Assembly: GCA_003612585.1 (NCBI GenBank)
Contig: RAZH01000002.1
Coordinates: 1-64,000, forward strand
Reading direction: 5' to 3'
Length of the DNA stretch: 64,000 nt
Source of the DNA: a bacterium 1XD42-54
GTDB taxonomy: Bacteria > Bacillota > Clostridia > Lachnospirales > Lachnospiraceae
In this document: positions 1,151 through 36,547 of the stretch, piece by piece
Layout of the letters: each line of letters opens with the position of its first letter
Position numbering within the stretch: the first letter of the stretch is position 1
The notes under the pieces: model-generated
The model's input: only the letters and a program-made list of their open reading frames with translations
What the model was told of the DNA's origin: nothing
Database searches by the model: none
Made by a program: the position numbers and the translations under genes

Positions 1151-1162
1151 AGGAGCCTTGCT

Positions 1163-2029: not shown

Positions 2030-2031
2030 AT

Positions 2032-4291: not shown

Positions 4292-4293
4292 AT

Positions 4294-6617: not shown

Positions 6618-6668
6618 TGTAAGGAATACCGAACATAAGTTTTGATGAAAATAATGTGTGGCATCTAT

Positions 6669-6687
6669 TAGGGGGTGATAAGCTATT
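6669..6687 (+). promoter_or_regulatory. Extended Shine-Dalgarno with apparent AUU start
   Basis: TAGGGGGTGAT (6669-6679) matches the extended anti-Shine-Dalgarno complement AAGGAGGTGAT almost fully. Nine bases after the G run lies ATT (6685-6687), in frame with the winged-helix gene. The in-frame TAA at 6679-6681 rules out any longer start, while the later GTG at 6742 and ATG at 6745 have no ribosome binding site. Confidence 0.5.
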
Positions 6688-7128
6688 GGACGGTTATTAA
6701 TAGCAGAATTTTCGGAGAAAGATAATTCTGTTTTTGATGAAGTGATGGAATTTCTCAACCAATATCCATGTTTTGAGCATTTACGAATAAAAGATGAACC
6801 GATGGTTTCGCTTCCGGGTCTGGAGATTTACCCCAATCGGCACAAAATATACCGTGACAGGCGGGAAATCAATCTGACAGCAAAAGAGTATGAGATACTG
6901 GCGCTGCTTGTAGCAAACAAAGGCCGTGTACTCACCTATGACCAGATATACCAAAAGGTTTGGGGCGAAGAAGGGTTTGGCAGCGAGAATAACACGGTGG
7001 GATGCCAGGTTCGTAATCTTCGTGAAAAACTGTACGAGGCAGAACCGGACGCACCATTTTCAATCCGTTGTGTGCGTGAGGTTGGCTATTGTTTTGAAAT
7101 AAATTCAGAGGAAAAAGATGCTACATAA
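6685..7128 (+). CDS. Stand-alone winged-helix (OmpR-type) DNA-binding protein
   Basis: 147 residues if started at the AUU at 6685, 128 if started at the GTG at 6742. The C-terminal 95 residues form a complete OmpR/PhoB-type winged helix: INLTAKEYEILALLVANKGRVL, then TYDQIYQKVWGEE, then NTVGCQVRNLREKL and a wing ending in VREVGYCFEI. There is no receiver domain; the N-terminal 45 residues are too short and lack the phosphorylation pocket. Such lone winged-helix proteins recur beside integrative elements in gut Clostridia. Its target is unknown. It follows phoR by 67 bases in the same direction and ends at a terminator, so it may be co-transcribed with the pho operon. Confidence 0.7.
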   Translation: MGRLLIAEFSEKDNSVFDEVMEFLNQYPCFEHLRIKDEPMVSLPGLEIYPNRHKIYRDRREINLTAKEYEILALLVANKGRVLTYDQIYQKVWGEEGFGSENNTVGCQVRNLREKLYEAEPDAPFSIRCVREVGYCFEINSEEKDAT

Positions 7129-14204: not shown

Positions 14205-14264
14205 TTCAGGTTTTTCATTTAGTTTCACTTAAGATACATGTTTTTCATTAAAAACTCCTAATGG

Positions 14265-14307
14265 CTGTCGTCCGGTTAGTGACCTTTAACCGGGCGGCAG
14301 TTTTTTT
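14265..14307 (+). terminator. Terminator of the nucleoside hydrolase gene
   Basis: CTGTCGTCCGGTTA (14265-14278) pairs with TAACCGGGCGGCAG (14287-14300) with one G-U pair, followed by seven T. Confidence 0.92.
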
Positions 14308-14383: not shown

Positions 14384-14412
14384 TTGAAAAATCAGGAATG
14401 AAATGGTACGAT
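14384..14412 (+). promoter_or_regulatory. Candidate promoter of the giant surface protein gene
   Basis: TTGAAA (14384-14389), 17-base spacer and TACGAT (14407-14412), about 105 bases upstream of the chosen ATG. The rest of 14308-14520 is A+T-rich with no other feature. Confidence 0.5.
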
Positions 14413-14520
14413 ATAAGGTGATAGTAAATTCATCGAATTGATATGGAACATATAAAATATCGATTGGATTTTGGTAGATTTTATAAAATAAGAGTAATAA
14501 AAAAGAGAGGGGAAAAAGTA

Positions 14521-17500
14521 ATGAAAAAAAAGTGGTGGACGAGGTTCGACAGAGGCATAGAAGTGCTTTTGGCTGTTTCATTGTTCATGACGCAGACTGC
14601 GGTTCCGGCGTTTCCGGTGGCAGCCGAGACATCCATAATAACTGAGCAGATCGAAGAGGTGCAGATAAATGAGGGGATTTCTGCATCAGGGGAAGATGAT
14701 ACGCTGATTGTTGAACCGTCTGGTGATCAGACGGATATTATTGTGGATGGAGACGTTCCAGAAGGCGGAGATGACCTTGTAATCAGCGAGGTGGAAGAAA
14801 TTTTGATTGAGCCGGATAATGCAGAACCGGAAACCGTTTTTGAGACAGAGACTGCAGATTCAGAAGTACCTGATCTTTCAGGCGCAGATCTGATGGTTGA
14901 GAGTATGGAGGAGATGACATATGCTTTAGGCCTGGAGGACAGGGCGGGTAGTATTGAAGAGCATCCGGTGAACTTTTATTATTCTTATATCAATGGTGGT
15001 ACGGTTGTGACGGACGTTAACGGAAATCCTGTGCGCAACCAGGCGTTGCTCGGACATGGGGAGCACAATGCGGTTACACTTGATTTAACGGCGTCTTCGC
15101 AGCTGGGTTCTGGTGAAGGCCGCGGCATGTTTTTTGAGATGGATCTTCCTTATTTATATTATGATGATAATGGGGCATTGCGCATTACGCACAATGTGTT
15201 GGACGTGCCAAGCGATCAGCTGCCGGAAAACAATCCGAATGCGATGTATGTTGGGGCGCGGATTTCGCCTCCCGAGGGCTGGGAAGAAGACATTGACAGC
15301 GATACGGTATACTATGGAAAGAACCGGTTCCATGCCAGCGATATCAGCATTACGGACGCAAAATCCATCACACTAAGAGCGCAGATTTTCCTGGTGGGAA
15401 AAATCCCTGAGAACACGGAGATGACGATCTGGCTGGGCGGTGGCTATGATGTATATGTGGATGCGAACGGCAAGGAAGGGAACGACTACTATTTTGAGCC
15501 TGGTGCGAAAGATGAATATATTTATCATCTGATCTGTTCGAATCTGCAGTGGAATCCTGCGATTAAGGCCGTCACACCGAAAAATGTCAAATGGGACAGA
15601 TATAATTATCTTGTATATAAGGCGACTGTGGAAAATACTTCGACGGATGATGCCAGCCATATCAAGGAGGTTGACCCTCTTAGTGTGAAGCTTCCTTCCT
15701 GGGAGGATGACTCGACAGGCTGGGGTGTTCGTACGGAGGATATCATGCGCTGGCGTTATAATCCGGATGGTGAGCCGACCGAGAATACGGATTATTCAGA
15801 CCTTGCAAAAGAGGAATCCTATATCGGTATTCCGGGGAATGGCGGAGCACTGATTTATGATGTGACCGGTATTTCTGATGAAACTTTGGCGAAATGGGAT
15901 CTGTCGTCCTTTGATAATATTGTAAATGATGAGGGGCAGAAGCTAGAGCCGCTTCCGTACCATTTTACATCAGACTGTCGTGTATCGTTTCCGACGGGGG
16001 AGCATGCGATTCATATGAATGAGAAGCGGGAATATTATTTTGCGATTCCACTTGGAACCGATACGCAGGAGACAATTATTTCCGCACAGCTTCTTGCCAA
16101 TGTAAAGTTTGGTGCAAACTACGGCTGGACAAAGTTTGCCACGGATCTGACGAATGGTTTCGTGGCCCCTGAGATCGGAGCAACACACAACCATTACCTG
16201 TTGGACGGAGACGGAAACAAAATCAGAGAAAAGACAGTGGCGATTGGTTCGAAAGTCGATCACCATCTGAGTGGTTTTGGCAATACCAGTAATGTGCCAG
16301 TATTTAATTTCTCTGCGACCGAGGCGCTTGACGAGCATTTTATTTATGATGGCGTTTCTATTTTAATGAACCATGAGGAAGACGAAAGCGTTGCATTAAC
16401 AGACTGGTTCCGAGAGAATGGTACGGCAGAGTTTGAGTTTACGATTACGGATGCACAGGGAAAAAAGACAACAAAATTTGTACCGCTCGGTGCGTTTTCA
16501 CCGGATGCAGACCGTACGACATCAACGTGCACTGCATGGTCTATGGATGCGCAGCCGGTAAAGGATTACATTGCGGCAAATACGTCAAAAACACAGTCCT
16601 GTACTTTTACGAACCGTGTGAGAATTCGTTTCAAGGATCGAATCAGCGCCAATACTGCATTTGACGGAGAGATTATTGTCACCGGACTGGCAAATGAAAG
16701 CCGTACGTACACGAATAATCTGGGTACTTACTATGAGAACTGGACATGGCTTCCGAATGAAGGAGACTACTTAAAGACAGGACATGATCTGCCGACAATT
16801 CCGGTAAAGATTGTTGCAGCAGCAGCGACGCCAACGGTTGTGACGGATGTATTCCACAACGAAGACGGAAAACTGGTATACAATGATCCGCTGTCTGTTC
16901 CGGTAAACACGCCGGGCGTAGGATTCCGTTACAGGCTTTACAATGATAGTATTTCCACATTGATTCCGGGTGTATTTAAATCCGGTGATCTGGCAAAGGG
17001 AACGATTGACGAACCAGAAGGCTTGATTGTAGAGCATGTTGTGCTGTCATCAAAATTGCTTGCGGACAGTATACCGGAGAGTATTACCTTCCAGACGCTG
17101 TTTGGCGAAAAGGTTGTGATCGACGGTGATGAGTTTGCAGCTTTGCTGGCTGGTGCTATGGCGGCTTCGCAAGATTTGGTATTTTCTTCAGAACTGTGGG
17201 AGGAGTACGGCGCACTGCATGATTTCAAAGTAGTGTTCAAATCTTTCTCGGAGAATACAAAGCTTGATGCTGATCGTTGTATAAAAGTGGATGGCCAGGT
17301 AAATGTGGTGAAAACCCAGAAACCTGTCGGCGTATTTTCTACTGATTATGAAAATCCTGATCTGAACAGAGAGTCAAAGGATGAGGCTGTGATGAATGTC
17401 ACATCTATTCAGCCGGTATTGACCGGATACAGCTATCAGGATGATACAAAGTCTGCGATCAATACAGCGAATAGCACGCAGGCACAGCAGAAAGTGAATT

Positions 17501-20500
17501 CTCTGACAGTTCCGAACAAGCAGGAACATACGGGATATGAGTTTGAACTGACGAATAAGGCCGTGGCTTCTGTCGGAGAGATGAAGATCCGGATTGATCT
17601 TCCGTCCGTTGCGAATAAGTCTGGGGATGACAGCAAGCCGATTGTCAAAGGATTTGACACGGAGCGTATTTTACTCTCTGGTTTTAAGGTGGGAGATAAG
17701 GTGGTGGCAGACATTAAGGCCATCCATATCTATGACTGGAATCACTCGCCTGATTCAGATAATCCGGACGCTGTGATTCCTGCTTCTGCGATTATACCGG
17801 AAGCAGATGGAACATTCACGATTGAAAAAAGTGCGCTTGTGGATGCCGATGGCAATCCGGTGAAGCTTACGATGATCCGTTCCATTGTATTTGACTGCAA
17901 CGAGTTTAATGGAAATAAAGCGGGCAGCATGACGATTCGGCTGGACGGAAAGACAGACTGGTTTGATGATCTCGATGCAAAGCTGACATTTGCACCGGAA
18001 AATGAGACTATGAAAAACTGTACGACGGTGTTGACAAACCGCCTGCATGTCGATCGGCCTGTGCTGTCTGTACACGGTGATGTCGAATACTTTGCAAACA
18101 ACAAATCCGTAAGCTCTACCTATACGGCAAATACGGATCAGAATCTGATGTCTTTGGCTGTTCCGTATGACAGAGATTTTAGCTATCTTGTAAATGTGGA
18201 GAATACCGGTGTATCGGTACTGGATGACGTGGATTTAAAGGTCACACTTCCGATTAATGACAGCTCTGCAGGAGCAGAGGCAAATACAGGTTTCCACACG
18301 ACAGGCATTGAGATCAGCCGTGCACTTTTGGAGCAGTTCCAGGAGATCGAGTCAATTACTTTCTGCGATGCAGATGACACGGCAGGAAAGAAATTTATTT
18401 ATACAAAAGCGGATGGTGCGACATCCGGCGAATTTGTTCTGGAAAACGGAACTGCATCATTTGGAAGCGGCAGCGGAGATATTGCGCTTGCTGAGGCAGA
18501 CCTGATTGCCTGGTGTGGTATTCATAATCTGCGTTCTATTTTGATTACGGGAAAGAAATTTCAAGTCACAGGGGCAACAAAAGAACTGTGGATCAAATTC
18601 CATGGCTTTTCTGATTCCGTGTTCGGTACGACCAATACCATGGTGATCGATGGTATAAACTATCTTGACGGGCTGCGCGATGTGGCGGCTTTTGCGAGCA
18701 AGACCATTGACCGGGCAAATGCTTATGTCAGCAAAATGTATTTTGACACTACGATCGCAGCCGGTTATACGACTGAGACCTCGACAAACCGCTTTGAGCG
18801 CGTGAGTACCGCGTGGGAGCATGTGAAAATACATCGGCCTTATGGAGGAGATACGCCATACTGGGATGACAACTCAGAGCTGGATATCGGCTATAAGGCA
18901 CTGGGTTCTTATATGATAGATTTCCGTCAGTATCTCAATGTTGGAAGGTCCTATCCGGCTATGCCTGTGCGAGGCGTATACAGCCAGGAACACCAGGATA
19001 TGAGCTATGTGTATACCGAGTCATTAAATACCGCAGCCAAGGTAGCGCTGCATATGACGCTTCCGGCGGATGCGTTTGATGCCTACTATCTGAAGATTGA
19101 TCCGAGGGCCAAAGATTATATCCAGTCCATTCGGGTTACGAGGGCAGACGGCACAGTGCAGACCATTTTGCCGGATGAGTGGCAGGACAATTCCGTGGCC
19201 AATGCGGCCGATGGAAGGAAATACTTCCGCGTTGATCTTGTGGAAGGCGGAGAAGAAGCCGCAGAAGGCGAAACAGGGGATGCGGGTGATACAGGGGATA
19301 CGGGCGATACAGTGGCCGAGTATTACAAGAGTCCTGACGCTGACTATACGGCAGAAAACCCGGTGACCAAAGTTGAAGTGGAGCTTGACATCAATGAAAT
19401 TGGCGATGATGGAAAAAATGCGTTAAATCCGGATTACGGTACGTGGTACCATGCAAATGACCAGAAGACCATGTATATGTTTGAGGTCACGGGAAGATTC
19501 TATAAAGCTGGAAATTATACGGCTTCAGTGACGTCTGACCTTGAGGTTGGAGGAAGCACGAGAGACGGTGTAACGGCAGTTGCGAAGGTCAGAACTCAGA
19601 CGGGAGCAACGACGGCCCGCTCAGAATGGTCTTTCCACAACTACTATCAGTACTGGTGGTACAGCGGCTGGTACTGGCACAGCGACTGGGCTGAGTATGA
19701 TGCGAGAGGGTTACAGTCCTCTACAAAGGTGAGCGTTTATAAAGAGAATAATGCAGTATTAAAGGGCGTTCATACGAATCCGAACCAGACCGGGGATAAC
19801 AGTGTCACCTTTGGTACGTATAATGAATTTGCGGTTGGCTTTTACCAGGGAATTCAGGGATCTTCACATGATTATCTGAACGGTGTGGGTTCTAACTGGG
19901 TGTACCAGGATTACTTTGATTGGACCGGAAAACATGCGCATACAGATACCGTTATTCTGACAGATACGCTGCCTGAGATCCGGCCTGACAGTGAGATGAA
20001 ATACTATGGTTTCCGTACAGAAGATATCTACCTGTCGTCACAGCTTTATGAGTATCTGGATTACGTAGAGATCACCAAAAAGAAAGTGACGCGCGACGAG
20101 GGAGAGACAGAGACCTATACCACTACGGTTTTGTCAGATAAAGCAGATCTTGTAAAGATTACCAAGGAAGAGCTTCAAAAGGCGACGGGAAGCCATGCTG
20201 GTTTCTATCATATTCCGGTGATTTATCCGGAGAAGGAAGAAGAGCCGGAGACGGAAACAGAGACAGAGACGGAAACAGAGACGGAAACAGAAACAGAGAC
20301 ACCGGAAAGCGGTGAAACACCACCGGAAAAGGGCAGTGTTGTCCTAGGAGAGGATGAGTTTGTTTACAGCTATACCATTCATCTGAAAAATATTTACGGA
20401 CACGGTGATTACGCATCTGAGTTGAGTGATCGGAAGAGTGAACTGAAGACCTGGACGAATCAGGGCGCAAATACAGACTGTGATATCTTTGTAGGTGGCG

Positions 20501-23500
20501 GTGTGTATATCGTTAGACCTGCCAATAATACGGTCCCGAAGGATGCTTATAACAACCTGAACGCTTCTTCTTATATGGAGAGTGTGGAGAGTACCTATTA
20601 TTCTCAAAAAGATGACGCGTACATGATGGGATATCGTCTTCCATTTCAGGCAGGCCATCTGATTGATGCAAATCCGGGCGGTTATATCTGGGATTATAAG
20701 GCAGATAATCATGAGGCTACGGTAGCTCCGTTTGAGGTGAAAATCTGGAACCGTGCTGATACCAACACGTCAACCGGAAAGTCGGCACGCATTAGCAAAG
20801 CAGTGACGACAAACACGATGAATGCCAGCTATCGTCTGAAACATATTTATATTCCGGAAGAGTTTATTGAGGGAACCTGGTACAATCTCCATACACTGAC
20901 GATGAAATATGGTTCCGGAGGAAAACATACGGTTACCATGAGCCTGGAGAATCTGAAAACCGGCGGCACGTATGCAAAATATATGACGAAGGACGCCGCA
21001 AAAAACAGATATGTGTTTGATGTGAATCAGTTCTTGATCGATCATATTGAGGAGCTTGAAACGTATACGGTGAGCAACCAGGATGCGGGGGATCTGTATG
21101 TAAAGGAATTTGTACATTCATTTACCATGGATTTACGTGCCGTATCCCCGAAAGACGACGGACTCGACGGAGGAGAATACTTAAGTGCCACAAAGGCAAA
21201 TCTTCCGGCCTATACGTATGACGGCGTGTACGTAGACCGTACGAAGGAAGATATGAAAGAAGACGAGTGGACTCTGAAATCGAGGCCCACGGTTCTGTAT
21301 TCGGCGGGGTATGATTACTGGGATGATACATGGTATCGGAATTATCTGGAGGTAAGCTTTACCTCTTCCGATGTAAATGCAGAGAATTACCAGGGTGACT
21401 TGAGCGGAACGACGACGGAAGATTATTATCAGATTAAAAATCTTGTCGGAAATATGCAGGTTGGTATGAGCAGAACAACTGCGCTTTCCGATACGCTCTC
21501 TTCATTTGCATACGATGTTGATCTCGATGCAGACGGCAATAATCAAAAGCTGGGAGTGGATGAGGCGCATCTTTTGCCGAATGACTATATTGAATACCAT
21601 CTGACGATCGGCGCGGCGGATGACAGTGCGCTTCCGATTTATCGACCAGAGCTGCGTTTCACGGTTCCGGATGGACAGAGAATCATTGGCTGGAAGATTG
21701 GAAGCAGATCAGATAAACTGGATATCAAAGATGAAGATATCACTGCTACCGCGATTGCAAAAGGCGAGACACAGCCTGTTGTAATGAATCGTGATAAGCT
21801 GTACGCGCTGGAGGAAGAAACGACTCCAGCTCCGGGCGGAGATATTCTGCCGGAGGAGCCGGAAGCTACGGAACGCATTGGCGAGAAGACAAATTATAAA
21901 AGAATTGATCTGGTAATCGGTACGCTCAAGGATCGCGAGACAGATATGGATGCATCCGTTGCTTCAAATTCTTTTGACAAAGGGGAGCGGCTTGAGATTA
22001 TCGTACTTACACAGCTTACGGATGAGCTGGAACCTTCTGAGGGAAAAAAGACAGGTGAGGCGCGTTATTATGCGGCGGCTCAGCCGATTCACACGTATTC
22101 GGACTACAAGATCAATGGAAACGCCAGAAATAACGGCGGTGCATCCTCTTCCTCCCGTTATACAACCTCCCAGAATGCGGATTATTACCGTTATGTGGGC
22201 AGTTACTGGGGAAGAACCGGAGAGCAGACATATCTGTCGGATATCCGCAGCAGTGTGACGTTCTATGACAGCCGGAATCTCTCAGTTGTGGCAGCTTATG
22301 ATAATCTGGCGCATCAGTATGACAGCCAGCCAATGACGATAAAGGTGACAGGAGCAGATGGAGCAAACGCGGAAAATGACGCGCTGCATACGCTGGATGA
22401 AGCCACTTATACGCTGGCTTTCCTGTCAAAAGCAGGTGCAAAGTGGTTTAAAGGTTTTGACCTCACAGAGAAACCGGAGTTTTCCTATCCGGCAAATATG
22501 GATGCATCAGCCGCAAGGCCGATTAAAGTGGAATATTGCTATTTCGGCAATATTGGCACCAAAATCGGAAGCTATACGGAAGCTGAAATGAAGAATGAGA
22601 TCTGGCTGGAGGATGAGGAAGTTACCCTTTCAGATGGTACAACCTGCAACCGGATTGTGGCAGATGCAAAAGAGCTGACGCAGGAGCAGAAGGACGCGGG
22701 ATGCCGGCTTCTGAAAGATGCAGTAAAGATTCGCTGGACTTATTATGATATTCCAGCATACGGGACAGATGGCAACCGGGTTGTGTTTGCATCCAAGGGA
22801 GATGAGTTTACCCTCCACGGGCTTGCACGCTACCGGGACATCCGAACAGATGCAGAGCGTCAGACAAAGGTGATTGCAGACCGTTTTGACATTCTGATCA
22901 GTGCCGATGTTGTGTTGAAACACAAGCATCATGAGATGGTGGCGAATTCATTGACCGGAGATGACGCGGCAGATGTGGCTGAGGAACAGGAGTTTCAGGA
23001 GGTATCGAAGCTTCTGGGTACAGGAAGCGTGGGAGCAAAAGCGGCGCTGGAACGTCCGGTTCTGAATCTGCATACACAGATTTTTGAGGAGGAGACGCAG
23101 GCACAGACACCGTATGATGCGGCGGCAAAGCAGCAGCTTGGTTATCGACCGGGGGATACGGTATGGTTTAAGACAAGCATCTCAAATATACCGGCGGCAA
23201 ATGCCGCGGTTGGCATGCAGGGAGCACTTCTGGAGCCGGTTATTTTCGATAAGATTCCGCAGTATATTACAGCCTGCGGTCTCGATGGTGCAGCTGGTAT
23301 TACCGGAGCAGGCGATGGTGCGGAAGACCCTGATGTGGCGGCTGGAATCCATGTAGTATGGTACGATAAGGACGGAAATCCGAAACCGGATGTTCCGGAT
23401 TATACGGTAGCTCTTTCTGATACGTTTGAAGATATACCGGATTATGGCGGCGATATGGTGACTGTCAAGGCAGACAATGACGGAGTCGGAATGGGAACCG

Positions 23501-29500: not shown

Positions 29501-32500
29501 ATGTGCAGGCGATCTATGTAGAACCAAAGGCAGGCTTTGAGCTTGGCATGATGACGAAGCTGGCACTGTCGTACCAGATGAAGGCACCGTTGAACCTGCC
29601 AATGTATCCAGGTTATACGCCGGAGAGCAGTCCGGGCGCGGTACTTTCAAGTGCAGTAAAAGAATTTTGTTCGTTCAACAGCTTTGTAGTACAGGCGCAG
29701 GGAGAAGAACCCACAGAGTCCGCATTTGTCGGTGTGTATCTTGATGCGCCGGGGGACAAAGGATATATCGGACATTATGTGTGGATGGATGAGGATTACA
29801 GTGCGAAATTTACGGATGACGCGGAATACGTGCAACGAGACGGCCGGTGGATCCGGTCAGGCGGCGCAGACCCCGGAATCAATGGTGTAAAAGTAGAGCT
29901 TCTTTCTGAAAACGGATATCCGGTTAACCGCCTTGGAGAACCGGTGGTAGAGTATGGCGGAAAGTACTGTCTGGTAAATGAAGAGACAGGAGAATTGCAG
30001 CTCGATACTTCAGATAATCCGATCTACACGCTTTATGGACCTGAGTATTATATTACGGAAAATGATGCATACGGAAATCAGGGTTACTACGTACTGTCCA
30101 ATCTGACGCCGGGCAATTACAAACTGCGCTTTACCTTCCCGGAAGGCGTTTACGATGAGCATGCAATCACGACAAGGCTGCTCGGAATGACGCAGACGGG
30201 CGTACAGGTATTCCGGCCGAATGACAGGCTTCCGGATCTTGGGACAAAGGGAAGCGGTGTCGTACCGTCTGACAATGCAGAGGTAAAGAGTCTGACAGTT
30301 CAGATGAAAGCTGCAGTACGTGTTGATGCGATCGGAACTGATCCGTCTACGTATGCGGACTATGATGAAAGAATGACTTCCTATGATCTTGGTATTGCAC
30401 CGGCCTATATTTATGGCGGATATGCATGGAAGGATGAAGGAGAAAAAGTAGATGGCAAAGGAGGAACAAACGGATATATTGACAGCAATGAAGAGCGCCT
30501 TGAAAAAGTCCGGCTGAATATTTATGAGATTCTTTCGGACGGAACGAGAACGCTAACCTACGATGGTGACGGTGAATTGACCGAGGATATTTTGACAGAT
30601 AAGAACGGATTCTTCCAGGTTTCGTTGTATCCATATCGCAGCTACGTTATTGTAGCTGATACCGGGCTTTTGGATACCGTATATGAACCGACTCCGGTTA
30701 CACACAGTACGTATCCGATGGAAATGTCAAACGATAACGACCTGGTGTTCAAGACGACGGAGATGGAGATGGCGACATCGATGTTTACGTCGGGGCCGGT
30801 GTACAAAGACGATAAACCGATCATGAATGACAAAGGAAGCCACGGGCCATTTTTGAGTATTGGTCTCGGATTTGTCGAAGTCGGAAAAGGTTATATCGGA
30901 AAATATATTTTCAACGATAAGAACTATGACGGTCTTCGGAATATGTACATCAACGATGAAGGCTATCCGGCTACAGAGCCTGGAGTTGACAGCGTTCGTC
31001 TGGTACTGGAGCAGTATTATTACGACAATGGCGAGTGGAAGTTTATAGACGATATACAGGAACAGTTCAGTGATGGTTCTTCTTATATCTTCTCCGGTGT
31101 TACTACAACGTATACAGCAGGAAAGAAGAAATATCTTGCAGGCTACCGGGTTAAGATAGATCTGAACAGTTTGCCGGAGGACTTTGTTCCGTCAAAGTAT
31201 TGGATGGGAAATGGAACATCGGACAGCGATCTTCCGACCGTTGATTTAGGCAAGGAGCCCAATCAGGGATCGCTCAGCAGTGAAGAGGGTGGCGATTACC
31301 GGTATATGAATCAGCAAATTCTGGTTATTTCGGATTTCGCGACAGATGATACGCTGGAAGAGTACAAGCTGACAGTAGAAGGTGTGACCTATGATCTTTC
31401 TAAAGCGCGGACCGTACTTGATACAGATGCTGCTTTGGCTACTGTGGATTATGCAGTAATTGAAGGCGTCATTTGGGACGATAAGAATTATGACGGCCAG
31501 CGGGGAACGTACAAGGATGAGGACGGAAATGAGGTGTCTGAACCTGGTATGACCGGAATTAGTTTACAGCTTGTGCCGTACGTATATGATGGAGGCAGCT
31601 GGAAGCTGCTGCGGTCAAAAGATCTGGATGATCCGGATGAGTATGGCCGTTACGTGCCAATGACCGTAACAGGCGGAGATGGCGCTTATGTGTTCGATCA
31701 TGTGGTTTCAACCGCATACGTTGGTGGAAAGCGACTGCTGACAGGATATCGGGTTCAGATCATAACAAACTTTGCAGGTAAGTGGTACGGAATTACAAAA
31801 TACCGTCAGGGCAATCCTGAGACCGACAATGATCTGCGCAAAGAGAATGGAGCATTGATGTTTGGTGAGTCTGACGAGATTATCGTTGTGGCGCGCCAGG
31901 TTAAGGAGAGCGATCTGCGCAAAGAGTACGGAGATATAGCGCTTCGCAATCAGGAGCAGATGGTAATTCAGAATGCGCTTGGCTATTTTGATGTCAATAA
32001 AGTGGTTGACGATCAAAAGGGTGGCGATGCAGGCTTGACAAAGCTTCGTCGTAATTCAATATCAGGCCGCGTATGGGAGGATACAAATTATAATGGTATT
32101 CTTGATACCGAAAAAGGAACGGACAGCGAGCCGGAAAAGGGAATAGAAGGCATTGAGGTAAGCATTCGCCGCTACTATCTGAAAAAGGTACAGAGCAGTG
32201 AGGAAGCTGGTACCTGGATGGAAGATACCGAGTTTAATGATGAAGACAGGACCGTTACAACAGATGCGGACGGAGCTTATTGCTTCGAAGATCTGGAGGC
32301 ACAGGTTTACAGAGAAGGTATCTATTATCTTGCAGGTTATAAAGTCTTTGTAAAAGAACATCCGGATTTGTCTGTCTATGCAATTACGCGTTACCGACAG
32401 GCAAAAGAGGAGGGGCAGATTGACAGCGACCTCAGACCGGATCGCAGTATGAATGAGGAAAAAGAATACATTATACTGTCAGAGTCATACAGCGAGGCAG

Positions 32501-35500
32501 AAGCCCAGGCAATGCTGAAGTACAGCACCTATATGGTAAAACACGGAGATCGTTATTATGATATGGTGACTGCGCTTCCAAGAGGTGGATATGATGCCGG
32601 ATACCATAAATATCCGATGTCCAGTATTTCCGGATTTGTATTTGAGGATCTGAATTATGATGGTGTCCGCAATACAGACACGGGGGACCCGTTGCAGGAG
32701 GAAGGATATTCTGAACAACTGCGTAAGGTGCTGAAAGATACGGGAGAACAGATCGTTGTGACAGCAGTCGGTTATTACTATAATGATGGCTGGAAGCTGT
32801 ATCTGGATGAAGATGGCAATCAGGCAGAGTATACGGCGGAGATTGGGCCGGAAAGTGACGGTACGTATAAACTTGAGGTTCCTACGAAATATCACGTAGA
32901 TGGTGTAAATTATCTGGCCGGTTATAAGATTACTGTGAACCAGGTTCCGGAAGGTTATCATACAACCAGGTATATGAGCAATAAAGGGAAAGAAAATGAC
33001 AGTGCGCTGCTGCGGTTTGGCAAGAATGATTACCGCCTGACAAAGACCGATAAAAAGCAGGTGTACCGTGGTACTTCCCAGGAAGAGCTGAAAGGGTTTG
33101 CAGTGCCAAGTGCGGCATTCAAAGAGGAAGAGGCCAAAACAAGCTTTAATATGTCAGCCGGATATGATATGGCAGCAGACCGGCCGCTGTACCATTACAA
33201 CATGGGTTATAAAGAATGTAAGCCTTCGTCGATTGAAGGAATTGCCTTCTTTGATAAGACAGATAATGGTCAGTATGATGCGGTGCCTGAAGAGGGCGCC
33301 GGAAACGGGGTTTATGATGCGCCGATGGCAGGAATCCGGATTGGTCTGAAGCGTTATTTGTGGGATGCGACGAATGACACATGGGAACTGGCGCAGGACG
33401 AGCCGACGGACCCGGACGATCCGGATCAAGCGTATTTCCTGATTACAGAAACAGCAGATGACGGAAGCTATTGCTTTGAGGAGCTGCTGATTCATGAGGA
33501 TATCGGAGACCGAAGCGAATTCACATCTTTGTACGGTTATGAGATCTGGCTTCTTGATATGCCAGAGGATGAAGAGGGCCGACAGATGGCGGCCACGTAC
33601 TATCAGACGAATGAAAACAGTCTGGACAGTGCTCTGGTGGCAGGAAACTGTCAGGTAGTTAAACGCCAGGGAAGCGCAAGCCTGGCAAATGGTGAGTGGA
33701 AAGCAGGATTTATCATGCTTGCTTCGCAGATCACAGAGGATATGGAAGAGTATGAGTATTCTTATCTCATAGACGGATATGACTGTGTTGGAGCAGAAGT
33801 GCGTGATGGCTACAATCTTGGCTTTATCCGGTACCAGGAAGGAAGCATTTCCGGAAATGTCTTTGACGATGTGGATTATGACGGTATCCGTGGCAGCGGA
33901 GACGGCAGCTTTGCGGATGTGGAAATCGGCCTGAAGCGGTATTATTATAATGCTGCGAAGCATAGCTGGGTTCAGGATCATCCGGAAGACAAGGAATACT
34001 TTGAGACTGTCAAAACGGATCAATCCGGCAATTATCGCTTTGAAGGCTTAAGTACCTACAAACATGTAGATGGTACGAATTGTCTGTATGGCTATGAGCT
34101 GTGGATGGTTCATGGAATCGAGGAAAAGGGCGGCTATGCAGTTACGCGGTACCAGGAACAGAAGGGTGTTGCGGACAGCGCACTTACGCAGGATCGCCGG
34201 ATTATAAAAGCAGATACGAGTCTGGAAGAAATGAAGGATGGTATGCTGGTGGTAGCCAGAAAAGCGGACCCGGAAGAAGAAGGCGTGGATAAAATTTATC
34301 TTGTGGAGGGCTACGATATTGTAAGGTCTCGGAGCCTGAAAGATTACAACGCCGGTTATACTGCATATAAGCCAGGAAGTATTGAAGGAATTGTCTTTGA
34401 GGATGTGGACTACGATGGTGTTTACACGCCGGGTGTAGACCGACCGGCAGCGAATGCGCATATCGGTATCAAACGGTTCTACTACGATGAGGCAGCGCGC
34501 AGCTGGATCCAGGAGCTTCCGGAAGATGAAACAGAGACGGAGGAAACGGAAGACCAGACGGAAGAGACAACGGAGAAAGAAACCGAGAAAGAGACGGAAA
34601 AAGAAACGGAAAAAGAAACCGAAATAGAAACAGAGGGAGCAACCGAAGTCGAAACGGAAACTGATACGGAAGACCAGAGTGAAACCCTGACAGAGGGATC
34701 GAGAATCCGGATGCAAGAAGATACAATATTGCAGATGCAGGTACAGGCAGGAAGTCGGAAGGCTGAGACAGAGGATATGAAAGAGTATATTCTGGATGTA
34801 TATACAGACCAGAACGGACGGTACAGGATTACTGATCTTCCGGTATTTATGGATCAGCCTGAAACCGAGGAACCGGAAACAGACGAAACCGGCGAGACCG
34901 AAGAAGTCCATTCGAAGCGACAGGAAGATATACCTGCGGGACATTATCTGTATGGCTATGAGCTCTACCTGCTGGATGATGAGCGTTATGCGACAAAGTA
35001 TCAGATTGGAGAAGGAACAGAAAGTGCTCTCAAACCGGAAAATCGTCAGATAATCAAAAGTGACACGGAACTTCCGGAAATGAAGAATCAGCTTATTGTG
35101 CTGGGGGAGCGGACAGAGGAGCAGAAGAATCCAAATCTGCCGTATATTGTGGACCATTATGATTATGTTAAAGGTACACAGCTGAGTCAGTACAATGCAG
35201 GTATTGTTCCGGAGATGCTGCACAGCATCAGCGGTATTGTCTGGGAGGATAAAGATCAGAATGGTATCCATGATGAGGATCGGCCGATGGCAGGGATTAC
35301 TCTGAAGCTGGAGCGTCTGTACTATCAGAATGGCTACTGGCAGCAGATGGATGAAAAGGAAGATCTGGAAGCAGTCACAGACGCTGCCGGGCGCTATTCC
35401 TTTGACGGGCTGAAAGCAGTCGAACGGAAAGAAGACCAGACCATCGTCTATGGTTATCGACTGAAGCTTGAGGAACTTCCGCCGCAATACGGCGTAACAC

Positions 35501-36378
35501 AGTTCCGGGCAGACCGCGGAAACAATGACAACAGCCTGAATGAAAAGACAGGATATCTGGAAGATGTTGAGGCTCCGTTTGTGCTGGCAGACCGCGCTGA
35601 TTCAACGACTCCGGCTCTGTATATTGTAGGTGGCTATAACGTTTCACACGGGCATTCAAAAGGGAATATGGATGCAGGTCTTGTTCCTTATGGAGCAGGA
35701 AGTATTGAGGGAATCGTTTTTGATGATGAAAACGGAAATGGAATCTTCGATAAAGGGGAGACCGTGTTGAAGGGCGAAACGGTTTATCTGGACTATGTGG
35801 TTGCAGGTACTCAGGGAGCCCGAAATGCCGGAGATGGCTTTGAGTCCTATAATGGCATGGCTGTAAAGACGGACAAGAATGGAAAATTCCGTTTTAAGGC
35901 ACTTCCGATTGTCAATGAGGAGAATGAACCTTATCAGTACAGACTGCGTATGAACAAGCCGTCAGATACGAACTTTACGAAAGTATTTTCTCTGGAAGAA
36001 GGCTGTAAGCAAAAGGCAAATGTTCTTTCGGCAGAAGGTGGAAATAAGGATTCCGAAGTGGGAGTGAGCCCGTCCCTTCAGCTGGCACAGGCAAGAGCAG
36101 AAGAGAACTATTATGAACTCAGATGGCAGCTTGCAGGCCAGGAATACGAAGATGTCTGCATTGGCTATAGTAGACAGAAGCAGACAGAGGACGACAACAC
36201 GCACGACGAGATAAAAAATGACACAAACAATGACATCATGGTTGAAGACAGCGGAAGCGGTGTGAAAACAGGCGATGAAACGCCAATTCTGCTCTATCTT
36301 CTGCTTCTGGCCCTCTCTGTGGCAGGTATGCTTGGCACTGCACGATATGCCGGAAAACGAAAGAGAAATGACGAGTAG
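14521..36378 (+). CDS. Giant repeat-containing cell-wall-anchored surface protein
   Basis: One uninterrupted frame of about 7,285 residues. The ATG at 14521 is chosen over 14443 because GAGAGGGG precedes it and it opens a signal peptide (MKKKWWTRFDRG, then a hydrophobic core to about residue 33). Residues 40-140 are acidic. Residues 140-5000 are beta-rich, with adhesin or DUF11-like segments and phrases such as LSDTLSSFAYDVDLDAD. A Trp/Tyr-rich patch lies near 1701-1727 and Thr/Glu stretches at about 1906-1935 and 6667-6727. Eleven SdrD_B-like repeats fill about 5081-7200. The C-terminus has VKTGDETP at 7248-7255, a membrane span and KRKR, a sortase-type anchor lacking a canonical LPxTG. It probably acts in adhesion or as a long surface fibre; ligand unknown. 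It is monocistronic between two terminators. Confidence 0.85.
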   Translation: MKKKWWTRFDRGIEVLLAVSLFMTQTAVPAFPVAAETSIITEQIEEVQINEGISASGEDDTLIVEPSGDQTDIIVDGDVPEGGDDLVISEVEEILIEPDNAEPETVFETETADSEVPDLSGADLMVESMEEMTYALGLEDRAGSIEEHPVNFYYSYINGGTVVTDVNGNPVRNQALLGHGEHNAVTLDLTASSQLGSGEGRGMFFEMDLPYLYYDDNGALRITHNVLDVPSDQLPENNPNAMYVGARISPPEGWEEDIDSDTVYYGKNRFHASDISITDAKSITLRAQIFLVGKIPENTEMTIWLGGGYDVYVDANGKEGNDYYFEPGAKDEYIYHLICSNLQWNPAIKAVTPKNVKWDRYNYLVYKATVENTSTDDASHIKEVDPLSVKLPSWEDDSTGWGVRTEDIMRWRYNPDGEPTENTDYSDLAKEESYIGIPGNGGALIYDVTGISDETLAKWDLSSFDNIVNDEGQKLEPLPYHFTSDCRVSFPTGEHAIHMNEKREYYFAIPLGTDTQETIISAQLLANVKFGANYGWTKFATDLTNGFVAPEIGATHNHYLLDGDGNKIREKTVAIGSKVDHHLSGFGNTSNVPVFNFSATEALDEHFIYDGVSILMNHEEDESVALTDWFRENGTAEFEFTITDAQGKKTTKFVPLGAFSPDADRTTSTCTAWSMDAQPVKDYIAANTSKTQSCTFTNRVRIRFKDRISANTAFDGEIIVTGLANESRTYTNNLGTYYENWTWLPNEGDYLKTGHDLPTIPVKIVAAAATPTVVTDVFHNEDGKLVYNDPLSVPVNTPGVGFRYRLYNDSISTLIPGVFKSGDLAKGTIDEPEGLIVEHVVLSSKLLADSIPESITFQTLFGEKVVIDGDEFAALLAGAMAASQDLVFSSELWEEYGALHDFKVVFKSFSENTKLDADRCIKVDGQVNVVKTQKPVGVFSTDYENPDLNRESKDEAVMNVTSIQPVLTGYSYQDDTKSAINTANSTQAQQKVNSLTVPNKQEHTGYEFELTNKAVASVGEMKIRIDLPSVANKSGDDSKPIVKGFDTERILLSGFKVGDKVVADIKAIHIYDWNHSPDSDNPDAVIPASAIIPEADGTFTIEKSALVDADGNPVKLTMIRSIVFDCNEFNGNKAGSMTIRLDGKTDWFDDLDAKLTFAPENETMKNCTTVLTNRLHVDRPVLSVHGDVEYFANNKSVSSTYTANTDQNLMSLAVPYDRDFSYLVNVENTGVSVLDDVDLKVTLPINDSSAGAEANTGFHTTGIEISRALLEQFQEIESITFCDADDTAGKKFIYTKADGATSGEFVLENGTASFGSGSGDIALAEADLIAWCGIHNLRSILITGKKFQVTGATKELWIKFHGFSDSVFGTTNTMVIDGINYLDGLRDVAAFASKTIDRANAYVSKMYFDTTIAAGYTTETSTNRFERVSTAWEHVKIHRPYGGDTPYWDDNSELDIGYKALGSYMIDFRQYLNVGRSYPAMPVRGVYSQEHQDMSYVYTESLNTAAKVALHMTLPADAFDAYYLKIDPRAKDYIQSIRVTRADGTVQTILPDEWQDNSVANAADGRKYFRVDLVEGGEEAAEGETGDAGDTGDTGDTVAEYYKSPDADYTAENPVTKVEVELDINEIGDDGKNALNPDYGTWYHANDQKTMYMFEVTGRFYKAGNYTASVTSDLEVGGSTRDGVTAVAKVRTQTGATTARSEWSFHNYYQYWWYSGWYWHSDWAEYDARGLQSSTKVSVYKENNAVLKGVHTNPNQTGDNSVTFGTYNEFAVGFYQGIQGSSHDYLNGVGSNWVYQDYFDWTGKHAHTDTVILTDTLPEIRPDSEMKYYGFRTEDIYLSSQLYEYLDYVEITKKKVTRDEGETETYTTTVLSDKADLVKITKEELQKATGSHAGFYHIPVIYPEKEEEPETETETETETETETETETPESGETPPEKGSVVLGEDEFVYSYTIHLKNIYGHGDYASELSDRKSELKTWTNQGANTDCDIFVGGGVYIVRPANNTVPKDAYNNLNASSYMESVESTYYSQKDDAYMMGYRLPFQAGHLIDANPGGYIWDYKADNHEATVAPFEVKIWNRADTNTSTGKSARISKAVTTNTMNASYRLKHIYIPEEFIEGTWYNLHTLTMKYGSGGKHTVTMSLENLKTGGTYAKYMTKDAAKNRYVFDVNQFLIDHIEELETYTVSNQDAGDLYVKEFVHSFTMDLRAVSPKDDGLDGGEYLSATKANLPAYTYDGVYVDRTKEDMKEDEWTLKSRPTVLYSAGYDYWDDTWYRNYLEVSFTSSDVNAENYQGDLSGTTTEDYYQIKNLVGNMQVGMSRTTALSDTLSSFAYDVDLDADGNNQKLGVDEAHLLPNDYIEYHLTIGAADDSALPIYRPELRFTVPDGQRIIGWKIGSRSDKLDIKDEDITATAIAKGETQPVVMNRDKLYALEEETTPAPGGDILPEEPEATERIGEKTNYKRIDLVIGTLKDRETDMDASVASNSFDKGERLEIIVLTQLTDELEPSEGKKTGEARYYAAAQPIHTYSDYKINGNARNNGGASSSSRYTTSQNADYYRYVGSYWGRTGEQTYLSDIRSSVTFYDSRNLSVVAAYDNLAHQYDSQPMTIKVTGADGANAENDALHTLDEATYTLAFLSKAGAKWFKGFDLTEKPEFSYPANMDASAARPIKVEYCYFGNIGTKIGSYTEAEMKNEIWLEDEEVTLSDGTTCNRIVADAKELTQEQKDAGCRLLKDAVKIRWTYYDIPAYGTDGNRVVFASKGDEFTLHGLARYRDIRTDAERQTKVIADRFDILISADVVLKHKHHEMVANSLTGDDAADVAEEQEFQEVSKLLGTGSVGAKAALERPVLNLHTQIFEEETQAQTPYDAAAKQQLGYRPGDTVWFKTSISNIPAANAAVGMQGALLEPVIFDKIPQYITACGLDGAAGITGAGDGAEDPDVAAGIHVVWYDKDGNPKPDVPDYTVALSDTFEDIPDYGGDMVTVKADNDGVGMGTGHAFADIVLSGNNKNTECTEISYNLYTISFAANTRLEIGERIEVWYAARIDEENLPLAYTTRSGKTFMDYYPKMGEYYQVGVGYSSSTGYTAASYPYAGRLSYHDNASEGITAGDEYYSFRKQFQNSANMMDMNFLCHDVGVSGTRNSGIDRYDYLKDSTVYMPGNGVDNDAYGGSNGVLKDYDINTAHNQQQAKYVPTMTREQFDELPVSEQYVHTTSGRNRDYFRLLLAYRNRSADWQKAEAEGGHEDAVIWAQARIHLQTAWLATSSRMYGLESDYFQNTEYLPTAYWNMRTDPHQERCPSGLSYYADSGVLRWRTALYNDDSITALEYDQNFMAQIGAYNYGDWDLTDGVEFIYVMPEGVEPSDLGNVQAYLMTGGDSKTPQYTAVDGAEVSVLQSPGGGGYLTPNIMRDPLLSNSALNRTGDSYVGKNPYQGSNSYVLRITVKQPLKKWFNRGSDKGYMMLVNIPAHVYATPANGYWYDEVMARPLDTEAEDSRYYQIYDITTLWGNNYLLALSAGLQTSTQYCGMDYLWNSYYRQNWNGYVNNNRYGIEDGRYYLNGSPNMPYINGMNISNLEVSAQGSVDDSGGREKFMSGKRTTYASTGTRAHMRRPFIRTWTTVGENNLEGSAGDCYYLDSQGDSSTMNVIVENKYWLHQLAPNRRYDINGDDIYQYYKHYHNYATDGGNKGTLYYPVVTDVLPQGIVPIDSEGLRFTQDNAYNATRTLDWSMYTAAYSAATSSTFALAEDEKALYQAIVEYVVLESDGGEPQGRYQITFMQKETPSIGNAVKAKISSEQRRCFSFKFVTMGPPDATTKDGDIDGRLTTQYGKNHVFVSSQLPNYRFLLDDEITENPYWVGNTQVTNYQNWAYQKYVNGTNYDARRDVAGLVLPWVPVLNDVGTQSAIDPTDVGGNKRYSEAEPIELEDYPTIRWSQKLASQNFNKNGISTEVGVHATNRIRISYPSIENQSYVSNHEAGTITDLGGRSPDGLAGTYTYYPDSSDKSKTVQYGDRLYYNVRISSSASANNYLYHGDIDHAVIRATIVLPKIVSYYEQQDADGNFAGPFYLYYQKGGTTKRYTFEELAEAGYQVELEQHHENEDGTETLVFKILTAGDNLKNPTFVDDYLTNKRRLPGSFEYGDVLVFGIETELDCAGEADSILEGDDYWDQAYKADTYVTLDDVSGEYLQEMYPDGGFEELAEYDESKIGWTRKTSDSEEDKIDWDEDGVYEDSYTQDVSAVVTVRKPGAIVRVDTSVQRVQIINPDLTGGTTTVVEDPSVKGAERMKIYVDQVVNTGSAVSDFVLDYRVPYRGTDDGTREEAPADGKQVESNVYAIGTGVWEMPGDPTSPEYQAYMDKLKLHVYALCSKSSRGPAEENAPYEEPGSDVASDVADWVDLTALMGAKDGLSLTENHIIDVTALSRTERNLNRRIYQIRFLISSGDRAYPVPEGFRLAIDADPDTDGNQEMDVIDPKHQNLNPLPDSITSTIGFGDGNIIDPDQTETGSAAFVMVTMINSNDRKQHVNHFAAAWAKFDSNDAHVGQTSERSRAGYYISREMPVLQVDLEAKYFKRQQIGKDENGKPIYGYKWDSDLTITDSSQMLKYRASISDLSEKAIEDAGLEATADNATHVQISTVLPYIQAIDSSVEDPDAEEPVYPKYPYTTYEEDTPVHGEYSSSTRLYPEQAQWSWYVEREDGTIAKSHGIDNVSIVMYDKVTDLNSQLQRRVMTWTADGYLEPGQKLVIEYLVPVNTESSGLDSSDLLTCKAYAFKPGAFMPHIPVVEGSYATYAFELDKRDINNNGLKNSENTLVKTVGGIGFGTGRSLTRMKISRSEYGSGLNAEGNNDKHPSLVPEGSEYSFASTALNPTETTFDQPVIYDVLPYVGDTAIMPRNAEHTQANPRGTKWSGILNLDSVQVLLGSKALTDGKDVTIWVGPFNYGANGVGIVKIPKESLPGLSDTWNKAFYDNLRKTDAAKRKYFVKLSDLKKLKGTDTYEDLERYVQAIYVEPKAGFELGMMTKLALSYQMKAPLNLPMYPGYTPESSPGAVLSSAVKEFCSFNSFVVQAQGEEPTESAFVGVYLDAPGDKGYIGHYVWMDEDYSAKFTDDAEYVQRDGRWIRSGGADPGINGVKVELLSENGYPVNRLGEPVVEYGGKYCLVNEETGELQLDTSDNPIYTLYGPEYYITENDAYGNQGYYVLSNLTPGNYKLRFTFPEGVYDEHAITTRLLGMTQTGVQVFRPNDRLPDLGTKGSGVVPSDNAEVKSLTVQMKAAVRVDAIGTDPSTYADYDERMTSYDLGIAPAYIYGGYAWKDEGEKVDGKGGTNGYIDSNEERLEKVRLNIYEILSDGTRTLTYDGDGELTEDILTDKNGFFQVSLYPYRSYVIVADTGLLDTVYEPTPVTHSTYPMEMSNDNDLVFKTTEMEMATSMFTSGPVYKDDKPIMNDKGSHGPFLSIGLGFVEVGKGYIGKYIFNDKNYDGLRNMYINDEGYPATEPGVDSVRLVLEQYYYDNGEWKFIDDIQEQFSDGSSYIFSGVTTTYTAGKKKYLAGYRVKIDLNSLPEDFVPSKYWMGNGTSDSDLPTVDLGKEPNQGSLSSEEGGDYRYMNQQILVISDFATDDTLEEYKLTVEGVTYDLSKARTVLDTDAALATVDYAVIEGVIWDDKNYDGQRGTYKDEDGNEVSEPGMTGISLQLVPYVYDGGSWKLLRSKDLDDPDEYGRYVPMTVTGGDGAYVFDHVVSTAYVGGKRLLTGYRVQIITNFAGKWYGITKYRQGNPETDNDLRKENGALMFGESDEIIVVARQVKESDLRKEYGDIALRNQEQMVIQNALGYFDVNKVVDDQKGGDAGLTKLRRNSISGRVWEDTNYNGILDTEKGTDSEPEKGIEGIEVSIRRYYLKKVQSSEEAGTWMEDTEFNDEDRTVTTDADGAYCFEDLEAQVYREGIYYLAGYKVFVKEHPDLSVYAITRYRQAKEEGQIDSDLRPDRSMNEEKEYIILSESYSEAEAQAMLKYSTYMVKHGDRYYDMVTALPRGGYDAGYHKYPMSSISGFVFEDLNYDGVRNTDTGDPLQEEGYSEQLRKVLKDTGEQIVVTAVGYYYNDGWKLYLDEDGNQAEYTAEIGPESDGTYKLEVPTKYHVDGVNYLAGYKITVNQVPEGYHTTRYMSNKGKENDSALLRFGKNDYRLTKTDKKQVYRGTSQEELKGFAVPSAAFKEEEAKTSFNMSAGYDMAADRPLYHYNMGYKECKPSSIEGIAFFDKTDNGQYDAVPEEGAGNGVYDAPMAGIRIGLKRYLWDATNDTWELAQDEPTDPDDPDQAYFLITETADDGSYCFEELLIHEDIGDRSEFTSLYGYEIWLLDMPEDEEGRQMAATYYQTNENSLDSALVAGNCQVVKRQGSASLANGEWKAGFIMLASQITEDMEEYEYSYLIDGYDCVGAEVRDGYNLGFIRYQEGSISGNVFDDVDYDGIRGSGDGSFADVEIGLKRYYYNAAKHSWVQDHPEDKEYFETVKTDQSGNYRFEGLSTYKHVDGTNCLYGYELWMVHGIEEKGGYAVTRYQEQKGVADSALTQDRRIIKADTSLEEMKDGMLVVARKADPEEEGVDKIYLVEGYDIVRSRSLKDYNAGYTAYKPGSIEGIVFEDVDYDGVYTPGVDRPAANAHIGIKRFYYDEAARSWIQELPEDETETEETEDQTEETTEKETEKETEKETEKETEIETEGATEVETETDTEDQSETLTEGSRIRMQEDTILQMQVQAGSRKAETEDMKEYILDVYTDQNGRYRITDLPVFMDQPETEEPETDETGETEEVHSKRQEDIPAGHYLYGYELYLLDDERYATKYQIGEGTESALKPENRQIIKSDTELPEMKNQLIVLGERTEEQKNPNLPYIVDHYDYVKGTQLSQYNAGIVPEMLHSISGIVWEDKDQNGIHDEDRPMAGITLKLERLYYQNGYWQQMDEKEDLEAVTDAAGRYSFDGLKAVERKEDQTIVYGYRLKLEELPPQYGVTQFRADRGNNDNSLNEKTGYLEDVEAPFVLADRADSTTPALYIVGGYNVSHGHSKGNMDAGLVPYGAGSIEGIVFDDENGNGIFDKGETVLKGETVYLDYVVAGTQGARNAGDGFESYNGMAVKTDKNGKFRFKALPIVNEENEPYQYRLRMNKPSDTNFTKVFSLEEGCKQKANVLSAEGGNKDSEVGVSPSLQLAQARAEENYYELRWQLAGQEYEDVCIGYSRQKQTEDDNTHDEIKNDTNNDIMVEDSGSGVKTGDETPILLYLLLLALSVAGMLGTARYAGKRKRNDE
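19621..19701 (+). other. Trp/Tyr-rich patch within the giant surface protein
   Basis: Residues 1701-1727 contain HNYYQYWWYSGWYWHSDW, with six Trp and six Tyr in 18 residues. Such density is unusual in a beta-rich surface protein and could form a carbohydrate- or aromatic-binding face. Confidence 0.6.
20236..20335 (+). repeat. Thr/Glu low-complexity stretch 1 in giant protein
   Basis: GAGACGGAAACA-type hexamer repeats encode alternating Glu and Thr (residues about 1906-1930), then a Pro-containing end. Probably an extended, charged linker between domains; the DNA repeat could vary in length by slippage. Confidence 0.85.
29761..36100 (+). repeat. Eleven SdrD_B-like repeats in giant protein
   Basis: Repeat starts near 29761, 30405, 30889, 31453, 32053, 32620, 33226, 33841, 34375, 35221 and 35698, mostly 480-610 bases apart. 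Each opens like GSIxGxVFxDxxYDGxxx, a beta strand followed by a Ca-loop-like DxxYDG, as in SdrD/Cna B domains. Most also share three later marks: a LxGYxxxx strand, a TxYRQ-like segment ending DSxL, and a GYDxxxxxxxxxYNAGY end. The first two copies lack a clear Ca loop. The ninth copy carries the second Thr/Glu insertion. The copies are diverged at DNA level. Confidence 0.8.
34519..34701 (+). repeat. Thr/Glu/Lys low-complexity stretch 2 in giant protein
   Basis: Residues about 6667-6727, with repeated KETE units followed by IETEGATEVETETDTE. It interrupts the ninth SdrD_B-like repeat, between its strand RSWIQELPED and the segment DVYTDQNGRYRITDLPVF, rather than lying between repeats. Confidence 0.8.
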
Positions 36379-36385
36379 TAAAATG

Positions 36386-36434
36386 GGAGCGTTGCAAAAT
36401 AGATGAAATCATCTATGGAGCAACGCTCCATTTT
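36386..36434 (+). terminator. Two-part hairpin terminating the giant gene
   Basis: GGAGCGTTGC (36386-36395) pairs with GCAACGCTCC (36420-36429). Inside it ATAGATG pairs with CATCTAT, giving a near-continuous stem, followed by ATTTT. It shares GCAAAATAGATGAAA with the hairpin at 9968-10012. Confidence 0.75.
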
Positions 36435-36460
36435 GTACCAGGCAGACAGCAGACAATAGA

Positions 36461-36515
36461 AACGGGTGAATTGCTCCATGATCAAAATAGATCATAAAAC
36501 GATTCACCCGTTTTT
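36461..36515. terminator. Bidirectional terminator between giant gene and arsR-type gene
   Basis: AACGGGTGAAT (36461-36471) pairs with ATTCACCCGTT (36502-36512), with ATGATC/GATCAT inside and a T run on the plus side. It lies between two convergent genes. Confidence 0.75.
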
Positions 36516-36547
36516 ACAGTTCAGAATTTTATAACATTTCAAAATAT

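Follow-up and report, generated by a model that had tools for sequence, protein, structure and literature searches.

The window analyzed here, a 64,000-nucleotide stretch from the Lachnospiraceae bacterium 1XD42-54 (contig RAZH01000002.1, positions 1 to 64,000), carries a giant gene of 7,285 codons plus stop on the forward strand (14521..36378), raising the question of whether so long a frame is genuine and what its product might do. Our preferred answer, to which we assign a probability of about 0.62, is that it encodes a giant fibrillar adhesin, anchored by a sortase, in which a stalk of SdrD_B-like units holds a conserved head of ~4,900 residues off the cell.

An initial annotation had described a protein of ~7,285 residues in one uninterrupted frame, and this frame was confirmed, with 323, 518, 100, 370 and 235 stops in the five other frames of the same stretch. 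The earliest in-frame ATG lies at 14443 (frame 14443-36378, 7,311 codons), but we prefer the start at 14521 because a congeneric copy (L009) keeps that ATG while its equivalent of the upstream one runs into a stop. An AG-rich ribosome-binding-like stretch precedes the ATG at 14521, and the base composition and codon use of the gene are similar to those of neighboring genes. L009 is a 9,422-base contig, letter-for-letter the same as contig C126 of the same-genus genome G736, and spans the gene start; over 3,042 compared codons (59 gap columns omitted) it contained no stop and 91.5% of residues were identical. The ratio of nonsynonymous to synonymous substitution rates (dN/dS) was 0.066 overall and 0.026-0.12 across 11 blocks of 300 codons (the last one short), revealing purifying selection on these first 3,042 codons. 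A protein database search with the window protein returned 54 matching proteins. Leaving aside near-duplicates, fragments and the most distant matches, we aligned 24 along its length (5,788-7,990 amino acids, 32-49% identity, 5,298-6,857 aligned residues), and all of these were open frames of similar length without a frameshift. The claim that the frame is under selection thus gained support from both dN/dS and full-length relatives, and the frameshifts in all relatives that would have counted against it were not seen.

The protein begins with a short basic and hydrophobic stretch that is also present in most full-length homologs among those listed. Residues 1-4800 matched no Pfam family (E ≤ 0.05) and nothing in PHROGs, and the first 5,000 residues matched no PDB chain by sequence (E ≤ 0.1). 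Residues 140-1250 are predicted to form a chain of immunoglobulin-like (Ig-like) domains: the AlphaFold2 model had a mean predicted local distance difference test (pLDDT) score of 84.3, its best Foldseek match was the Ig-like region of PrgB, antigen I/II (AgI/II) was also matched and VIA-align ranked pilins first. Intramolecular isopeptide bonds are frequent in pilin domains. Profile self-comparison revealed related repeats at residues about 700-1380 and none above 40% probability in the core (residues 1400-5070), where identity to the 24 relatives averaged 25-55% per 100-residue block. A Foldseek list obtained for core residues 2840-3985, which included integrins and AgI/II, was set aside given a mean pLDDT of 56. 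Head length, taken as the alignment span between the equivalents of residues 205 and 5084 in 24 of 25 rows (P0047, which lacks its C terminus, was dropped), averaged 4,945 residues (range, 4,727-5,320; coefficient of variation, 0.031), while the C-terminal part of the same number of rows averaged 2,212 residues (range, 839-2,941; coefficient of variation, 0.213). Being constant in length and mostly non-repetitive, the head is suggested to be the working part of the molecule rather than a mere spacer.

The eleven SdrD_B-like repeats noted in the initial annotation were recovered in the stalk, with unit starts at residues 5084, 5299, 5460, 5648, 5848, 6037, 6240, 6444, 6623, 6904 and 7064, nine of them placed by a pattern (which also matches twice in the head) and two read by eye and checked. 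Pfam SdrD_B (PF17210) matched with E 1.4e-26 and in four separate stretches at E ≤ 0.05; a genome-wide scan likewise gave four SdrD_B matches in the giant gene, two of which were over the curated cut-off. CarboxypepD_reg (PF13620), which we take to be a fold relative of SdrD_B-type repeats, was over its cut-off in the stalk part (E 1.2e-14), although none of its individual stretches passed. Pfam gave no match at E ≤ 0.05 to DUF11 or to collagen-binding B domains, for which the initial annotation had suggested a search. We rejected the idea that the whole protein is an SdrD-like repeat protein, as SdrD_B covers only its last 30%. The earlier description holds as regards a predicted surface protein under selection, but its repeat explains only the C-terminal 30%, the rest being the conserved head.

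Stalks differ considerably among relatives. A family-derived stalk profile found 10 stretches in the window protein, some partial, and from 2 (P0044) to 14 (P0036) in the 13 database relatives listed, partial ones included. More distant giants had 0 (G277), 2 (G094 C2) and 3 (G094 C1) stretches, so this type of stalk is not common to the whole superfamily. Within a set of 25 proteins (P0011-P0035), 24 have 7,190-7,223 residues and P0027 has 7,929. P0027 and P0011 share 7,203 of 7,223 aligned residues, but the stalk of P0027 is 706 residues longer and contains repeats at 168-residue spacing (5 of the 24 P0011-like proteins were aligned to it). Either the stalks truly vary in length or repeats have collapsed in the shorter assemblies. 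Words of 12 residues were shared internally at a spacing of 161-169 residues, or double that, in seven of eight relatives examined, and none were shared in P0011. The units of the window's stalk are diverged: outside low complexity they share just one 8-residue word (GSIEGIVF, residues 6619 and 7060), which makes collapse improbable here, and the stalk DNA contains short low-complexity arrays and no long tandem repeat able to mislead assembly.

The C terminus carries VKTGDETP at residue 7248, a hydrophobic stretch and KRKR, as first described, and this tail suggests sortase anchoring. Searching the genome for V[KR]TGD[DE]TP and near forms gave four places (a reversed control pattern gave 0), all of them C-terminal tails: those of the giant, a 575-residue protein (C11) adjoining two sortases, a 678-residue protein (C32) adjoining one sortase and a larger protein (C34; at least 3,115 residues). 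Overall, the genome contains seven sortase matches. The sole NCBIfam hit was to IsdC, weak and close to the tail (E 0.043), and the tail of the distant relative G277 has no KTG-type motif. The C11 locus (G000:C11:603908-622994; L027, L028) is pilus-like, with 4,506- and 576-residue LPSTG-tailed proteins, two sortases and a VRTGDETP-tailed protein, and the C34 protein (G000:C34:142652-151999; L063) is a second large surface-type protein, its tail reading SVKTGDETP.

Table 1. Features of the giant gene and its flanks, in window coordinates.
Feature	Position	Strand	Basis
Intrinsic terminator of upstream nucleoside hydrolase gene	14263..14302	+	Terminator scan; fold -27.2 kcal/mol, z -6.2; kept in L009
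Promoter-like site, TTGAAA-17-TACGAT, TG before second hexamer	14384..14412	+	Scan; sequence kept in L009
Signal-peptide-like start, residues 1-35	14521..14625	+	Judged by eye
Head, residues 140-1250, predicted chain of Ig-like beta-sandwich domains	14938..18270	+	AlphaFold2, Foldseek, VIA-align
Head core, residues 1400-5070, conserved, no internal repeat found	18718..29730	+	Pfam, alignment of relatives, profile self-comparison
Stalk, residues 5076-7200, 11 SdrD_B-like units	29746..36120	+	Pfam PF17210, profile self-comparison, unit count
Sorting-signal-like tail, VKTGDETP (residue 7248), hydrophobic stretch, KRKR	36262..36375	+	Sequence
First 3' hairpin, terminator-like	36380..36436	+	Fold z -7.4; absent from terminator pattern scan list
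Second 3' hairpin, then short T run	36460..36520	+	Fold z -8.5; absent from terminator pattern scan list

The upstream terminator marks the giant gene as a separate unit (Table 1). The promoter attributed to it has a sequence conserved in the congeneric copy, but the scan as a whole did no better than chance (1 found versus 1.6 expected). As to the terminators said to bound the gene, strong folds lie on both sides, but the 3' pair went unlisted by the pattern scan.

Together, these features are consistent with a giant fibrillar adhesin that would be exported by Sec through its signal-peptide-like start and anchored to the cell wall at its sorting-type tail by one of the seven sortases of the genome. 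The SdrD_B-like stalk would then act as an adjustable spacer extending the head away from the cell, and the head may bind a ligand such as a host glycan or protein, a food particle or another bacterium. Ig-like chains measure about 4 nm per 100 residues, so that an extended length of roughly 200-300 nm would be expected for this molecule. Several observations weigh against this interpretation. Pfam recognized no adhesive domain at E ≤ 0.05 and most of the head is uncharacterized, so it is the architecture that underlies the term 'adhesin'. The tail departs from a canonical LPXTG, and the window's giant gene has no neighboring sortase. Foldseek matched the N-terminal piece over multiple domains, with low template modeling scores (0.16 and 0.23 for PrgB) and root mean square deviations over 20, and the same list includes integrins, complement and axonemal proteins. 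The sole modeled piece of the core (1,146 residues) is weak, the family profile finds no SdrD_B unit in the 12,119-residue relative, short-read assembly could have collapsed repeats in P0011-like sequences and so shortened their stalks, and selection was measured on the first 42% of the gene only.

Genes next to the giant were compared across seven readable 3' flanks: that of the window and those of G277, G094 C2, G094 C1, G1019 (whose giant is P0027, a full-length relative), G989 C96 and G989 C52. In five of the seven, the giant is followed directly, on the same strand and within 98 bases, by a gene for an SBP_bac_5 protein (E 7e-26 or better), and in four of the seven a sortase gene comes after this solute-binding-type gene; at G277, for example, the giant precedes genes for a tethered solute-binding-type protein and a sortase. 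All 10 pairwise comparisons of the five solute-binding-type proteins gave a match (BLAST E 6e-6 or better). Each of the five carries an N-terminal hydrophobic stretch, and a pattern search detected no lipobox in any of them. A motif scan of the five fetched stretches for ATP-binding cassette (ABC) ATPases found one open reading frame, near G094 C2, that is SbcC-like by eye; no oligopeptide ABC ATPase was found nearby by this crude scan, which missed one ABC-exporter-like frame (by eye) near G1019. At G989 C52, an NlpC/P60 protein stands in place of the solute-binding-type gene. The window's giant has neither a solute-binding-type gene nor a sortase alongside, and genes for ArsR and a P-type ATPase come next on the other strand. 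Within the window's own genome, the protein most similar to a cassette solute-binding protein was only weakly so (E 5.5e-5, 26% identity), so the partner is either dispensable in this lineage or replaced by an ordinary protein. The best own-genome matches of the four cassette sortases are three sortases (C28, C2 and C31; 26-37% identity), none beside the giant gene.

How else might these data be read? The protein could be a structural surface filament or a scaffold for biofilm or aggregation, working through self-association of the head rather than ligand binding, which we regard as a possible but distinctly less probable account. PrgB, the best structural match, is a conjugation adhesin that aids aggregation, pilins come first in VIA-align and Pfam found no known ligand-binding domain; against this, shaft-like parts usually repeat whereas most of the head does not, and the level of conservation across the core suggests specific interfaces. 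Less probable again is a hidden enzymatic or nutrient-capture role of the head, with the adjacent solute-binding-type protein of relatives receiving the captured material. The recurrence of SBP_bac_5 genes beside the giants fits this idea, but neither residues 1-4800 nor, in the largest relative, the first 6,347 residues matched an enzyme family. In addition, the five solute-binding-type proteins lack a lipobox, the crude motif scan found no oligopeptide ABC ATPase near them and a gene of this type is missing beside the window's copy. That the frame is an assembly or annotation artifact, or a decaying gene, is suggested by its unusual length and is extremely improbable. We ruled it out on the grounds of a dN/dS of 0.066, relatives of similar length and the lack of long DNA tandem repeats in the window's stalk, and for the head the results in hand already speak against it. 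Moreover, ten loci from genome scans had open frames of 12,146, 10,213, 9,438, 7,950, 7,735, 7,418, 7,316, 7,251, 7,007 and 3,062 codons. Nine of these exceed 7,000 codons; the tenth is cut short by the end of its 9.4-kb contig, and the 7,251-codon frame likewise reaches the end of its own.

A further proposal, which we offer tentatively and think unlikely to hold in full, concerns the superfamily rather than the role of the head: wall proteins of 7,000-12,000 residues may come with their own export-and-anchoring cassette, in which a membrane-tethered, transporter-less protein of solute-binding fold would serve as an extracytoplasmic holdase for the emerging chain and a cassette-specific sortase would attach it. 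The window copy would then represent a streamlined branch in which the cassette has been lost and the general sortase of the genome is used instead.

The giant gene is patchily distributed. A 900-residue head query matched 2 of 47 congeneric genomes, 3 of 299 genomes of a family sample, 1 of 391 in a class sample and 1 of 398 in a phylum sample (the sole match in each of the last two being the window's own genome), and 1 of 23 in the genus of G1019, namely G1019. A query with residues 1-1400 matched 1 of 41 genomes, again its own, in a sample without G736, and one from the relative G094 matched 6 of 392 order-sample genomes, its own genome and G094 included. All of these counts are lower bounds because single-sequence queries miss distant relatives, and the samples overlap. 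The distant relative in G277 (G277:C116:22684-59043; L022-L023) is a single frame of 12,119 codons, of which the first 6,347 residues match nothing in Pfam at E ≤ 0.01. Two genomes have two giant genes each: G094, at C2 and C1 (L024-L026, L057-L059; 10,103 and 9,429 codons), and G989, at C96 and C52 (L051-L056; 7,406 and 7,725 codons).

We rejected the possibility that the gene is cargo of a mobile element: no relative was found in IMG/VR, where a mid-head query gave 42 stretches matching a pattern and none confirmed as a relative, in 72,556 plasmid records searched with a mid-head query or in PHROGs (residues 1-4800), and its composition resembles that of its neighbors. The upstream nucleoside hydrolase has some match in 13 of 47 congeneric genomes, and its only close ortholog (96%) outside its own genome is in G736. 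Since G736 also has the giant, no arrangement of the flank without the giant was found among the 47. A nucleoside hydrolase cluster related to this upstream gene, including two equal-scoring copies, lies at G000:C11:454441-459829.

Comparison with known systems places the protein near several of them. It shares SdrD_B-type units (PF17210) with staphylococcal SdrC/D/E, which have ligand-binding N2-N3 domains and a serine-aspartate repeat, but only this stalk unit is common: Pfam, run on three pieces that together span the protein, found no matching head domain, and the giant has no long serine-aspartate repeat and a tail that is not LPXTG. The predicted fold class of residues 140-1250 is that of PrgB, the Ig-like regions of antigen I/II and pilin domains (PilB, CppA and BcpA), although identity in structural alignments is 9-15% and the chain is far longer. 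Fibrillar adhesins (PMC8286594) and Periscope Proteins (PMC9704523) are established classes, as outlined in these sources. Like the former in Gram-positive bacteria, the giant has a probable N-terminal working part, a stalk of tandem beta-domains toward the C terminus (SdrD_B in four stretches, 11 unit starts) and a sortase-type tail; unlike them, as summarized in PMC8286594, its head of ~4,900 residues exceeds the stalk and is colinear, mostly non-repetitive and without a recognized adhesive domain. The number of stalk repeats varies among relatives, in one case between near-identical copies (short-read collapse is possible), which recalls the Periscope Proteins in the outline given by PMC9704523, but the window's stalk units are diverged rather than highly identical. 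Bacterial proteins above 5,000 residues include DUF11- or cadherin-containing ones, according to the summary in PMC11573180, and proteins of 3,000-8,000 residues have been described in a lactic acid bacterium (PMC12863079). The latter, Giant1-5 of Apilactobacillus kunkeei, are likewise extracellular proteins of a Gram-positive symbiont; as that source outlines them, Giant1-4 have an N-terminal beta-solenoid, in contrast to the Ig-like chain predicted here, a distinction drawn from published description. Searches of an open-access library brought up no paper that seemed to deal with this giant-protein family.

Other parts of the window contain a phosphate-type ABC transporter set with PhoU, a response regulator and a histidine kinase (341-6617), a 128-codon frame, possibly a remnant, whose match to OmpR-type response regulators is confined to their C-terminal, DNA-binding half (6742-7128), a hybrid histidine kinase with PAS domains and a receiver domain (10114-12909) and a 1,409-residue CoA enzyme activase-type protein with BcrAD_BadFG, DUF2229 and a weak HGD-D match (49108-53337). 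Within the P-type ATPase gene on the reverse strand, a 33-base tandem repeat (39192-39313; 3.7 copies, 97% match) reads by hand as a Cys/His-rich 11-residue repeat that is likely metal-binding.

If the giant is a fibrillar adhesin, it would add to that class a form in which the head, rather than the stalk, is the giant part, with ~4,900 residues colinear at 32-49% identity. Residues 1-4800, matching no Pfam family, constitute a large conserved stretch of surface protein without annotation. These findings raise the questions of why so large a conserved head is needed and how export and folding of a chain of 7,000-12,000 residues are maintained, for which the solute-binding-type and sortase gene pair of relatives provides a concrete lead.
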